DNA of 64,000 nt from an uncultured Ruthenibacterium sp. (GTDB lineage Bacteria > Bacillota > Clostridia > Oscillospirales > Ruminococcaceae): assembly GCA_944386555.1 (NCBI GenBank), contig CALXBN010000018.1, forward strand, positions 62,001 through 126,000, read 5' to 3'. The notes beneath the pieces were generated by a model, which did no database searches, was not told where the DNA came from, and saw only the letters and a program-made list of their open reading frames with translations. Positions 5,605-43,964 of this stretch are shown here, piece after piece (the first letter of the stretch is position 1; each line of letters starts with the position of its first letter). Position numbers and translations under genes: made by a program.

Positions 5605-6885
5605 ATGGCAGATTATTTGGCAATGACCGTGCCGCAGCTGCAGGATGAACGAAAGAAGTTGACTGACGCGTATCAGATGTTTGCGGACAGGGGGCTGGCG
5701 CTGGATATGTCCCGGGGCAAACCTTCACCCGAACAGCTGGATCTTTCCATGGGCCTGTTTGAGATCCGTCAGTTTATCGGTGAAAACGGTGTGGACGCCC
5801 GCAACTACGGCAATTTGGAGGGGATGCCGGAAGCACGGCGCTTTTTTTCCGGCATTCTGGGGGTAAGCCCGGATGAGGTCCTTGTCGGCGGTAATTCCAG
5901 CCTGCATATGATGTATTCCATGGTGGAGCTGGCCAGCCGCCGCGGCTTTCCGGATGGGAGCGCACCCTGGGTCCGGCCGGAGCATAAGCCCAAATTCCTG
6001 TGCCCTTCACCCGGATATGACCGCCATTTTTTCATCACGGAGTATTTCGGCTATGAAATGCTGACCGTGCCGATGCTGCCCACCGGGCCGGATATGGACC
6101 TGGTGGAGCAGCTGGCAAAAGATCCGGATGTAAAAGGGATCTGGTGCGTGCCCAAGTACTCCAATCCCGACGGTTACAGCTACAGCGATGATACCGTGCG
6201 CCGTCTGGCGCAAATGGAAACTGGCGCGCCGGATTTCCGTATCTTCTGGGACAATGCCTATGCGGTTCATCATATCAGTGATACGCCGGATGAGGTGCTG
6301 AATATCATGGATTTGTGCCGCGAAGCCGGATATGAGAACCGGCCGCTGCTGTTCTGTTCACTGAGCAAAGTAACCTTTTCCGGCGCTTCTGTGGCTGCAA
6401 TGGCCGCCAGCAAAGCCAATTTGACGTATATCCTGTCCAACCTGGCGGCGGCAACCATCGGCTTTGACAAAGTCAATCAGCTGCGCCACGTATTGTTCCT
6501 GAAAGATATGGAGGGTCTGCAGGCTCATATGTGCCGTCAGCGCGCTTTGATTGAGCCCAAGTTTCAAATCGTATGGGAACTGTTTGAGCAGGAACTGGCG
6601 CCGTGCGGGAACATTGCCCGTTGGACCCACCCAAACGGCGGTTATTTCATCAGCCTGTACACCATGGACGGGTGCGCCAAGCGTACGGTGGAGCTGTGTG
6701 CCAAAGCCGGCGTGAAGCTGACTGCAGCCGGTGCCGCCTTCCCGTACGGCAAAGATCCCCATGACAGCAATATCCGTATTGCGCCAACCTATCCGCCGCT
6801 GGAAGAGCTGCGCACCGCAGCCCAGCTGCTGTGTGTCGCTTTACGCTTGGCCACTGTTGAAAAATTGCTGGAAAAGCATGCATAA
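5605..6885 (+). CDS. PLP-dependent aminotransferase, aspartate aminotransferase class Ic-like
   Basis: 426-residue fold-type I transaminase. DMSRGKPSPEQLDLS near residues 34-48 and the YGNLEGMPEARR motif mark the family often named aspartate aminotransferase type Ic or Aminotran_MocR-like. The PLP Schiff-base lysine is K255 in CSLSKVTFSG. The cofactor-ring Asp sits in FWDNAYAVHH, and CVPKYSNPDGYSYSD is the usual Asn-Pro loop. It probably interconverts aspartate and oxaloacetate with 2-oxoglutarate/glutamate, but substrate choice within the family is not proven by sequence. It is monocistronic, with its own promoter at 5502 and a strong terminator at 6901. The SD GAGAGGGG lies about 8 bases before ATG. 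Confidence 0.88.
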   Translation: MADYLAMTVPQLQDERKKLTDAYQMFADRGLALDMSRGKPSPEQLDLSMGLFEIRQFIGENGVDARNYGNLEGMPEARRFFSGILGVSPDEVLVGGNSSLHMMYSMVELASRRGFPDGSAPWVRPEHKPKFLCPSPGYDRHFFITEYFGYEMLTVPMLPTGPDMDLVEQLAKDPDVKGIWCVPKYSNPDGYSYSDDTVRRLAQMETGAPDFRIFWDNAYAVHHISDTPDEVLNIMDLCREAGYENRPLLFCSLSKVTFSGASVAAMAASKANLTYILSNLAAATIGFDKVNQLRHVLFLKDMEGLQAHMCRQRALIEPKFQIVWELFEQELAPCGNIARWTHPNGGYFISLYTMDGCAKRTVELCAKAGVKLTAAGAAFPYGKDPHDSNIRIAPTYPPLEELRTAAQLLCVALRLATVEKLLEKHA

Positions 6886-9484: not shown

Positions 9485-10960
9485 ATGCAACAGCCCCTGA
9501 CCGCCAGCCTGGCGAAAAACAAAGCCGCATTGCGAACCATGTTCGGCGAAACAATCGACTTATACACCAAAGAGATCCGGCTGTTCGGGTTTCCATGCTG
9601 CATCTGCCTGTTTGAGGGGCTTTCCAGCATTGAACGGCTGTGGATCATGATGCTGGATATTCTCTCCAGACCGCCCGAATCGCAGCCGCCCGCCAGCCCG
9701 CAGGCGCTGTTTGATTTTGTACTGTACCGCACCGCCATTCCGCTGGAGGCCAATACGGTGGAAGACCTGGACGGTGTGCGCAGGCAGATCACCGCCGGTG
9801 CCTGCGTGATTTTGGTGGACGGCGTATCGAAGGCTCTGGTGATTTCCAGCCAGAGCATGCAGTTCCGCTCGGTATCCGAACCCAGCGGAGAGGGGAATAT
9901 CCGCGGCTCCCGCGAAGGGTTTATTGAGCTTCTGCGGGTCAACATCAGCCTGGTGCGCCGGCTGGTGCGCAGCGGGAACCTGACGGTAGAGACTTTGACA
10001 GTAGGCCGGCGTACCCTGACGGAGGCCGCGCTGCTGTATGACCGGGAGCGGGTATCCGGCCGCCTGCTGGATACTGTACGCGGCCGCCTGCAGCGCGCCA
10101 GTCTGCCTTTTGTGTTCGACAGCGGCTATCTGGCCGGCTTTGTACAAAAAAGCCGGTTTTCATTTTTTCAGTCGGTGGGTTATACCGAGCGGCCGGATAC
10201 CGCGGCAGCCAAACTGTGCGAAGGAAAATTGATCCTGCTGGTGAACGGGAGCCCGTTTGCCATGATACTGCCGTATTTTTTCACCGAAAACTTTCAAAGT
10301 ATGGACGATTATGCGGAAAAAGCTTATTTTGCCACACTGATCCGCCTGTTTCGCTATGCTTCATTTTTGCTGGCCGTGCTTTTGCCGGGAGTTTTTGTCT
10401 CGGTGGCGAACTTTACGCCGGAGCTGCTGCCGCCCCAGCTGATGTACAAAGTTGCTTCGGCGGAACAGGCTACGCCGCTGCCGCTGTTTATGGAGGCGCT
10501 GCTGGTCAATTTTTTGCTGGAGATCATTCGGGAAGCCGGCCTGCGCCTTCCCAGGCCTATCGGGCACGCTGTAAGCCTGGTGGCAGCGCTGATCATTGGC
10601 GATGCGGCTGTAAGCGCCGGCCTGCTGGGCACACCGCTGGTAATCGTTTCCGCCTTGACGGCTCTGTGTACTTTTGTCGTTCCCAATTTGTATGAACCGG
10701 TCATCGTTCTTCGCATCCTGTTTATCCTTGCCGGCGGCATCCTGGGGCCGGTGGGCGTTGCCGTTCTCTTCTTCTGCATGGTATTGGGCATGTGTGAAAT
10801 GAATGCTTTCGGTATTCCGTATATGGCGCCGGCCGCTACCCAAGCCAAAGCTTTTCTGCGCGACGGCCTGCTGCGCAGCGGATGGCAGACACTGGCAAAG
10901 GCGGACTTTACCGTGGGAGATTTGCAGCAAAAAGTCCCGGAACAGGAGGGGAACCCATGA
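9485..10960 (+). CDS. gerA: Spore germination protein GerA-family A subunit
   Basis: 491-residue A subunit of a germinant receptor in the spore inner membrane. A long cytoplasmic N-terminal region (to about 240) is followed by a hydrophobic half with four to five membrane segments (ASFLLAVLLPGVFVSVANF; AVSLVAALIIGDAAVSAGLL; TPLVIVSALTALCTFVVPNL; ILFILAGGILGPVGVAVLFF). The family motif PLPLFMEALLVNFLLEIIREAGLRLP is seen around 360-385. Of two close ATGs, 9485 is preferred because AAGGAGGG lies 7 bases upstream. The stop overlaps gerB (ATGA). The germinant is unknown. Confidence 0.95.
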   Translation: MQQPLTASLAKNKAALRTMFGETIDLYTKEIRLFGFPCCICLFEGLSSIERLWIMMLDILSRPPESQPPASPQALFDFVLYRTAIPLEANTVEDLDGVRRQITAGACVILVDGVSKALVISSQSMQFRSVSEPSGEGNIRGSREGFIELLRVNISLVRRLVRSGNLTVETLTVGRRTLTEAALLYDRERVSGRLLDTVRGRLQRASLPFVFDSGYLAGFVQKSRFSFFQSVGYTERPDTAAAKLCEGKLILLVNGSPFAMILPYFFTENFQSMDDYAEKAYFATLIRLFRYASFLLAVLLPGVFVSVANFTPELLPPQLMYKVASAEQATPLPLFMEALLVNFLLEIIREAGLRLPRPIGHAVSLVAALIIGDAAVSAGLLGTPLVIVSALTALCTFVVPNLYEPVIVLRILFILAGGILGPVGVAVLFFCMVLGMCEMNAFGIPYMAPAATQAKAFLRDGLLRSGWQTLAKADFTVGDLQQKVPEQEGNP

Positions 10961-42455: not shown

Positions 42456-43538
42456 TCATTCAGTCGTATCGTCTTTGCCCTCCGGGGTATCCGCCGGAGA
42501 TACCTGACGCGGGTCATCTGCCGCAGGGCGCTCAAAATCCATCTGCGCAAAAGGGGAACTGTCTGCCGCCTGGCGCAGCTGTGCGGATCCCAGATGGGTA
42601 TAAATTTCTGTTGTAGAGACATTGGCATGGCCCAGAATCTCTTTCAGCGCCAGCATGTCCACGCCGCCCTCCTGATACATCAAGGTGGCAGCTGTATGGC
42701 GCAGTTTATGGGCAGAATAACCGCGGCCGGCCAAGCCGGCGCTGCGCAGGCACTGTTCTACGATTTGCTGTACCCGCCTGGCAGACAAGCGCCTGCCGGT
42801 TTTCCGGGAGACGAACAGCGCCTGGCGGTCCTGCAGATTGGGCATCTTACGGCGCTCGGCCAGCAGTCTGTCCAGTGCAGACAGACACGCCCGATTCAGG
42901 TAGACAAGCCGTTCTTTGTTGCCTTTGCCGACAATGCGGATGGTGCAATCCTCACGAATATCGGTGACATTGATATTCACCAGTTCCGACAGACGCATAC
43001 CGCAGTTGAGGAACAGGGTGATGATGCAGTAGTCACGCTCATAAAAATCTGATTGAACATTTTTCAGCAGCGCTGTGCCTTCGGGCAGGGTAAGGTATTT
43101 GGGCAGGGCCTTTTTCAGTGCCGGCGCATCCACATCATCCGCCGGATTAACTTCCAGAAGCTTCATTTTGCTGCACAAATACTTGAAAAAGCCTTTGATG
43201 CTGGACAGTTTCCGTGCCCGGGCGGCGGGCGCGTTGCTGCGGGTAAGTGTAACATAATGAAGATACTCATAGATTTCGCTGGTGGTCACATCGCGAATAA
43301 AGGGCAGCTCCAGTTCCCGCACATCGATCGCTTCCAGCGGTGTATCGGCAGGCACCAGGCCGCGATGCAGTTTCAGAAAACGAAAAAAATTGCGCAGGTC
43401 GATGTAATAGGCGTTGACGGTACGCGGCGAAAGGCCGCGGATGGTTTCGCTGTCATACAAAAAGCGCACCACCAGCGGCGGGCAGTCTTTGTAGTCACCG
43501 TGTTGTTTGGGATGGCGCGAATCAATGTAGGTGCTCAT
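42456..43538 (-). CDS. Xer-type tyrosine recombinase
   Basis: 360 residues. The core-binding domain (SAM-like, about 20-125) precedes the catalytic domain with R182 (GMRLSELV), K205 (GKGNKERLV), H277 and R280 (HKLRH), H304 and nucleophile Y313 (STTEIYTH). XerC/D resolve chromosome dimers at dif. It is longer than typical XerC/D (~300), with about 25 extra N-terminal residues and a 40-residue acidic tail, closer in size to single-enzyme XerS. No phage or transposon genes are nearby. The dif-like palindrome at 43627 lies about 90 bp upstream. Confidence 0.88.
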   Translation of the reverse strand: MSTYIDSRHPKQHGDYKDCPPLVVRFLYDSETIRGLSPRTVNAYYIDLRNFFRFLKLHRGLVPADTPLEAIDVRELELPFIRDVTTSEIYEYLHYVTLTRSNAPAARARKLSSIKGFFKYLCSKMKLLEVNPADDVDAPALKKALPKYLTLPEGTALLKNVQSDFYERDYCIITLFLNCGMRLSELVNINVTDIREDCTIRIVGKGNKERLVYLNRACLSALDRLLAERRKMPNLQDRQALFVSRKTGRRLSARRVQQIVEQCLRSAGLAGRGYSAHKLRHTAATLMYQEGGVDMLALKEILGHANVSTTEIYTHLGSAQLRQAADSSPFAQMDFERPAADDPRQVSPADTPEGKDDTTE

Positions 43539-43626
43539 GGATAACCCTCGCTATGTTTTTTCATTACTGTAGTACCGGAATTTTTATCAAAGTTATCAGT
43601 AGGGATGCGAATTGCGGAAATATATA

Positions 43627-43654
43627 ATTTCGCTAAATATAAATTTAGCGAAAT
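43627..43654. repeat. Perfect 28-bp palindrome, dif-like or operator
   Basis: ATTTCGCTAAA, TATAAA, TTTAGCGAAAT: 11-bp arms around a 6-bp centre, the architecture of dif sites. The arms are perfectly inverted. It lies upstream of a Xer-family gene. The flanking 43539-43685 region is AT-rich. Confidence 0.5.
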
Positions 43655-43685
43655 ACAGGTGAGAAGAAACCGCCTTTCTGCGGCA

Positions 43686-43964
43686 TTACATCCGAAACGG
43701 CATCACAACGCCTACGATACGGCCGACAAGATAAACGATTGCCATTTGAACGATGAAACAAAGAATCAGCAGCACGACTGACAGACTGCTGTTCTGCGTT
43801 TTCTCAAACACTTTTTGGCGGTAACGGGCCATGATCCATATTTCCGATGCGAAGAACAGAATGAACAGCGGATGGCTTTGAAATGCCAGGGCCATATTGG
43901 AGAGCGCATAGCTAATCACCACACAATTGACGGATTCGATCAAAATCTCAAACCATTTTGCCAT
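43686..43964 (-). CDS. Small membrane protein, hypothetical (92 aa)
   Basis: 92 residues with three hydrophobic segments (ILIESVNCVVISYALSNMAL; HPLFILFFASEIWIMARY; SLSVVLLILCFIVQMAIVYL) and AAAGGAG before ATG. It ends 31 bases upstream of the palindrome. No family is recognised. A weak CCGC/GCGG hairpin follows its stop. Confidence 0.65.
   Translation of the reverse strand: MAKWFEILIESVNCVVISYALSNMALAFQSHPLFILFFASEIWIMARYRQKVFEKTQNSSLSVVLLILCFIVQMAIVYLVGRIVGVVMPFRM

Follow-up and report, generated by a model that had tools for sequence, protein, structure and literature searches.

In streptococci and lactococci, one recombinase of ~356 aa, XerS, is encoded beside its site, difSL, which lies at the terminus, has dif-like inverted repeats and is used together with an FtsK-type translocase (PMC5357621). 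difSL has a length of 31 bp, and its two arms, which are imperfect and differ in length, surround a centre of 11 bp (PMC5357621). Similarly, Helicobacter and Campylobacter have one recombinase of 354-362 aa, XerH, whose site, difH, is near its gene and has imperfect arms of 11 and 10 bp (PMC5357621). The single recombinase of Legionellales, XerL, has a dif with uninterrupted long inverted repeats that was found via a mobile element integrating at the site, and in L. pneumophila dif and xerL are >400 kb apart (PMC9765430). By contrast, the canonical dif of B. subtilis and E. coli is a 28-bp site at the terminus with an 11-6-11 layout and unlike arms, and is served by the two recombinases XerC and XerD. 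Published predictions of dif in Firmicutes were seeded on the B. subtilis sequence (PMC3025954).

Here, we analysed a stretch of 64,000 nucleotides (G000:C18:62001-126000; hereafter, the window) from a draft genome of an uncultured Ruthenibacterium sp. We suggest that the 28-bp palindrome at 43627-43654 serves this Ruthenibacterium-like Oscillospirales bacterium as its chromosomal dif and that the adjacent gene codes for its recombinase, a reading to which we give a probability of roughly 0.93. Our searches of the literature, including searches for Faecalibacterium dif, XerS/difSL in Clostridium and inovirus/dif in Clostridia, returned no description of a dif/Xer system for this group of gut bacteria, and a literal search of papers for the arm sequence gave unrelated hits only.

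The palindrome, the Xer protein and their chromosomal position

The palindrome (C18:105627-105654; plus strand) consists of the left arm ATTTCGCTAAA (43627-43637), the centre TATAAA (43638-43643) and the right arm TTTAGCGAAAT (43644-43654). It has the layout of a dif site, i.e. ~28 bp with two ~11-bp arms around a 6-bp centre, although, counted strictly, the inverted repeat is 12-4-12. A sequence-only reading had reported this 11-6-11 palindrome around TATAAA at exactly these positions, and its by-eye count of matches to Bacillus dif was also exact: using the dif sequences in PMC3025954, the 28-mer is identical to that of B. subtilis at 17/28 positions and to that of E. coli at 18/28. In the 2.23-Mb assembly (63 contigs, 93% complete), the 28-mer is unique, being the only match at ≤3 mismatches. 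Palindromy by itself was dropped as evidence because comparable repeats are common in the window and the contig: the window has three perfect 11-6-11 repeats, the 28-mer included, and the 192-kb contig has ~20 repeats with at least 10/11 symmetry, mostly G+C-rich and terminator-like. The feature that stands above chance is the conservation of the exact sequence, not the palindromy.

The neighbouring xer gene (42456-43538, minus strand) codes for a tyrosine recombinase of 360 aa, and its start codon is 88 bp from the palindrome, in agreement with the ~90 bp estimated earlier. The product matches Phage_integrase (PF00589) at 1.6e-34 and the XerC model at 1.5e-61, which is under the curated cut-off of that model. 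The scores against the XerC/XerD equivalog models are 208 (TIGR02224, cut-off 335) and 187 (TIGR02225, cut-off 330), and the protein reached none of the NCBIfam equivalog cut-offs. Its nearest named relatives are in Candidatus Ruthenibacterium, followed by Gemmiger and Fournierella. A tree that was built quickly and has some long branches places these Xer proteins together in a single clade (116 rows; SH-aLRT 99), separate from the canonical XerD proteins of Clostridia and from XerC and XerD of E. coli. The residues R182, K205, H277, R280, H304 and Y313 align with the catalytic residues of XerD and are invariant in 54 members of the clade. In its predicted structure (mean pLDDT 87), the protein most resembles archaeal XerA (Z 19-20), followed by XerH bound to difH (Z 17; structures 5jk0 and 5jjv). 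The FtsK gamma domain is present in 8/8 genomes tested. In one genome, two tandem xer genes of this clade are present (G043:C56:6816-9614), with the palindromic site on another contig. Between xer/dif and radA in the window lies an ORF of 92 aa (43686-43964, minus strand) with hydrophobic stretches and no match in Pfam or NCBIfam.

The position of the site on the chromosome is that expected of a dif. The cumulative GC skew, computed on the joined stretches of contig C18 (192,530 bases), climbs to the left of the site and drops to the right of it, and its maximum at 43666 (C18:105666), which we take as the switch point at the replication terminus, is 12 bp beyond the palindrome, with a plateau that extends ~10 kb further right, to about 116 kb. 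Because no DnaA_C match was found in the 63 contigs of the draft genome, the terminus of this genome rests on the skew. In the complete relatives G168 (one contig, 2,991,239 bases) and G016 (3,756,698 bases), the sampled skew is positive before the site and negative after it, with the sign change within ~15 kb. Measured from dnaA as a fraction of the circle, the site is at 0.47 in G168, 0.55 in G016 and 0.51 in G237, i.e. roughly opposite dnaA, and in G325, G370, G315, G371 and G321 the xer gene, or the site placed approximately beside it, is at 0.47-0.58. Thus, in eight Clostridia genomes with a positioned dnaA, the site or xer is at 0.47-0.58 of the circle (chance ~5e-7 if positions were uniform), with exact site positions in G168, G016 and G237 and the xer gene or an approximate site in the other five. 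The site is present in a single copy at the skew switch of our draft genome, and some relatives have extra copies.

Conservation and co-variation of the arms in Clostridia

Relatives of the window's Xer were found at 49 loci in a protein scan. Among the close relatives (Ruthenibacterium, Gemmiger, Fournierella and others), nearly all have both arms identical to those in the window while the centre varies, and the site is mostly ~50-300 bp, and up to ~800 bp, upstream of xer. At ≤3 mismatches, the arms were matched in 155/297 genomes of the family and a reversed control pattern in 4 of the genomes listed. An Xer gene is beside the site in 26 of the 30 pattern loci examined. Thus, as the earlier reading had predicted for a genuine dif, site and xer are kept together across relatives.

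Genomes of the family that lack the window's arm pattern often have another, equally perfect palindrome at the same place upstream of xer. These alternative mirrored arms include ATTTCGGAAAA in a genome of the same genus, ACTTCGTTAAA, AGTTCGCAAAA, ATTGCACCAAA, GTTTCACCAAA, ATTGCGTAAAA and others and, in other families of the class, ATTATACAAAA, TAGTCACAAAA, ACGTCGTGAAA and ATTACGCGAAA. Across class Clostridia, 72/115 distinct xer loci have a palindrome within 1.5 kb of xer (symmetry of at least 10/11 and an AAA-N6-TTT core), as compared to 0-1 when the flanks were dinucleotide-shuffled. The 27 arm pairs found in Clostridia are each symmetrical at 10/11 positions or more. The outer 8 bp of an arm agree with their mirror at 7.74/8 positions within a site and at 4.39 between sites; as the sites were selected by the palindrome test, this within-site symmetry is partly by construction and its independent part is the shuffle control. 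Co-varying arms are expected if one protein binds to both of them.

No palindrome of this kind is within 1.5 kb of xer at the remaining 43/115 loci, among them most loci of a rumen clade (L021-L050) and that of the complete genome G089, in which a search for an unlinked dif around the skew switch gave no convincing palindrome either. Several genomes have extra dif-like copies away from xer, and in the cases compared their centres differ from that of the xer-side copy. For instance, in three genomes of genus g45 (L140, L143, L081), a further dif-like palindrome is located downstream of one and the same radical-SAM gene, and its centre does not resemble that of the xer-side copy. Repeated dif-like sites with the fixed centre GCATAC/GTATGC are present in genera g67 and g2 (G217:C31:69737 and 70010, G181, G067, G291, G001); they are sometimes paired ~270 bp apart and possibly represent another mobile element. 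Two groups of candidates were not counted as dif: extra perfect matches in G262 (L136, L137), because they read as coding-like, related sequences, and a conserved palindrome of genus g70 (centre GTGTCC, L148), because it is far from xer.

Alternatively, the palindrome could be a true dif on which the neighbouring Xer acts together with a canonical XerD, in the manner of the two-recombinase systems of E. coli and B. subtilis. Outside the family, many genomes of Clostridia do have a canonical XerD of ~300 aa as well, and two recombinases may act together there. However, the five Phage_integrase hits of our genome (93% complete) are this Xer, two integrases of ~470-490 aa and two fragments, so that only one of the five is of Xer size and no second Xer-like gene is among them; and among 14 genomes of the family that were searched, tree-placed extra candidates fell in the canonical XerD clade for G041 only. 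Moreover, the arms are identical and co-vary, whereas those of B. subtilis and E. coli dif agree at only 6/11 positions. We consider a second recombinase at this site very unlikely, and this bacterium probably has Xer as its only dif recombinase.

Polarity of the site and elements that end in its centre

With the centre alone (consensus T N N A A A) used to orient the sites, the motif AGGGGAG was found at +3 to +9 on one flank. Among 69 loci, 57% have a match of at least 6/7 and 78% of at least 5/7, while matches of at least 6/7 are present in 3% on the opposite flank and in 3% of shuffles. In the window, the corresponding tail is AGGTGAG (43657-43663, plus strand), which matches the class consensus at 6/7 positions and is followed by AAA at 43667-43669; a right-flank tail followed by AAA is also seen at the sites of L009-L015, L070-L073 and others. 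Sites >60 bp from xer have a match of at least 6/7 in 24/40 cases, and at sites that point away from xer the tail is weaker (7/17 with 6/7 or more, 13/17 with 5 or more). Because the tail is also present at sites that are distant from xer or face away from it, it is not simply the ribosome-binding site of xer. This AGGGGAG-like tail, which is new here, would confer polarity on a symmetrical site.

Pooled over three genomes, AGGGGAG has a leading-strand bias of 69:15, among the strongest of its permutations, a bias that is confounded with Shine-Dalgarno-like sequences; it would fit a translocase-type motif but is no proof of one. The known KOPS/SRS motifs GAGAAGGG and GGGNAGGG were too few or too inconsistently skewed to identify such a motif. 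Of the two chromosomal landmarks that the sequence-only reading had proposed for comparison, the skew switch of the contig is at the site, and the KOPS/FtsK polarity gave no translocase motif. The known targets of the FtsK/SpoIIIE gamma domain are also short, G-rich motifs that are polarised along the replichores. We speculate that, throughout Clostridia, one recombinase resolves chromosome dimers on a perfectly symmetrical dif and that the one-sided AGGGGAG tail determines the order in which strands are exchanged by docking a factor, most attractively the FtsK/SpoIIIE gamma domain; taken as a whole, this idea is tentative and we hold it to be somewhat doubtful.

The site is also found in contigs of phages and other elements, and the exact arms are present in nine catalogued viral contigs. 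In L282 (1-7103), phage-like genes, among them one for a Zot-like ATPase (PF05707), are flanked by a hybrid site at position 114 and by an intact site at position 5945, the two sites being 5.83 kb apart. The intact site bears the tail AGGGGAGG and is followed by a host xer that is 75% identical to the one in the window. A direct repeat of 115 nt (26-140 and 5857-5971) is present in this contig, and its homology ends inside the centre of the palindrome. In L279 (1-7467; the same contig as L303), an intact site is located between the host xer and a rolling-circle Rep gene, and in L305 (1-6723) Zot-like and Rep_trans genes are beside xer and a palindrome with other arms (ACGGCACTAAA). L145 (G021) has a 779-bp insert beside dif (10012-10791), which codes for at most short coiled-coil-like ORFs and is bounded by repeats that begin inside the palindrome next to the centre. 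The elements in L282, L279, L305 and L145 look as though they use the host Xer to integrate, in the same way as elements at known dif sites. In the metagenomic contigs, the Clostridial dif appears to be a landing site for filamentous phages, i.e. inoviruses that exploit Xer. Filamentous-phage-like genes are likewise present in L302, L308 and L311, in which a Clostridial xer with a palindromic site is part of the contig or forms its end. Separately, four tailed-phage contigs (L280, L283, L284 and L286) have the same arms extended to AAAC...GTTT and lack the AGGGGAG tail; here, a small HTH (small-terminase-like) gene is on one side of the arms and a terminase-like gene on the other.

These observations bear on the main rival to dif named by the sequence-only reading, a self-regulating operator, i.e. 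a palindrome used by Xer or a repressor to control xer, with recombination secondary or absent. Perfect palindromes are typical of operators, 68/72 linked sites are upstream of xer, many at ≤60 bp from its start, and a weak promoter-like match overlaps the palindrome. Nevertheless, the intact site and xer are 10.8 kb apart in G008 and 30 kb apart in G210, although the two are neighbours in congeneric genomes, a GNAT gene (L002) or an asd-like gene (L207) can separate the two, the site is downstream of xer in L043, L205, L208 and L209, and an operator leaves the phage junctions in the palindrome centre unexplained. Based on these observations, a plain xer operator is very unlikely, and autoregulation may still occur alongside a dif function. 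A further reading, in which the upstream gene has the palindrome as an RNA hairpin, such as an intrinsic terminator of transcription, has a negligible chance of being correct, because, although a consensus scan lists the palindrome as terminator-like (minus strand, 12 pairs, tail TATATATTTC) and the predicted RNA hairpin has -12.8 kcal/mol, it has just 3 G-C pairs and no Rfam match, a T-rich tail follows only 8/72 sites in the sense of xer or 12/72 in antisense, the arms stay the same in many genera although their surroundings differ, and terminus position and phage junctions would go unexplained.

In our model for the locus as a chromosomal dif with its own recombinase, two copies of the single Xer would bind the two identical 11-bp arms of each dif. 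In the case of a chromosome dimer at the septum, an FtsK-type translocase, the gamma domain of which is present, would pair the two dif copies, and a Xer tetramer would then exchange strands across the asymmetrical 6-bp centre, converting the dimer into two monomers. As the arms are identical, polarity would have to come from the centre, and the AGGGGAG-like tail, located 3-9 bp beyond one arm, would probably contribute as well.

Comparison with described Xer/dif systems

The locus raises the question of how one enzyme on the identical arms of a perfectly symmetrical dif picks the first strands to cut, and the one-sided tail makes this question of strand order directly testable. In addition, the dozens of natural recombinase-site pairs with arms that change in step are a data set with which the DNA specificity of Xer enzymes could be read and re-engineered.

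With XerS/difSL, the locus shares a single recombinase of similar size with its gene beside the site (88 bp in the window; within 1.5 kb at 72/115 loci), as well as the terminus, dif-like inverted repeats and an FtsK-type translocase. The parallel to difSL beside xerS that the sequence-only reading had drawn therefore holds for the arrangement, but not for the recombinase, which scores 129.5 bits against the NCBIfam XerS model (NF003462) with its cut-off of 267; moreover, the site here is 28 bp long with a 6-bp centre, perfect arms and a one-sided G-rich tail. XerH/difH likewise has one recombinase with a site near its gene and a similar fold, while the sequence similarity to XerH is mainly over the catalytic domain (2.1e-18). 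As compared to XerL/dif, dif and xer are neighbours here, the single recombinase, uninterrupted inverted repeats and integrating elements being common to both systems; this comparison with XerL uses its published description. The canonical XerC/XerD dif is alike in length, layout, terminus position, 17-18 of 28 bases and the presence of FtsK gamma, and differs by its two recombinases and unlike arms, and the Xer here is in a separate clade (SH-aLRT 99 in the quick tree with its long branches). Finally, the elements described above resemble IMEX phages that integrate at dif, e.g. CTXphi (PMC5357621, PMC9765430), in having filamentous-phage-like genes (Zot-like, Rep_trans) by intact or hybrid dif copies, whereas here such putative integrators are from Clostridial relatives, in metagenomic contigs only. 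We file the locus as a single-recombinase Xer/dif module that is not XerS, XerH or XerL, the comparison with XerH resting on sequence similarity and fold and that with XerL on description. The predicted system combines linkage of site and recombinase gene, perfect symmetry of the arms and a one-sided tail.
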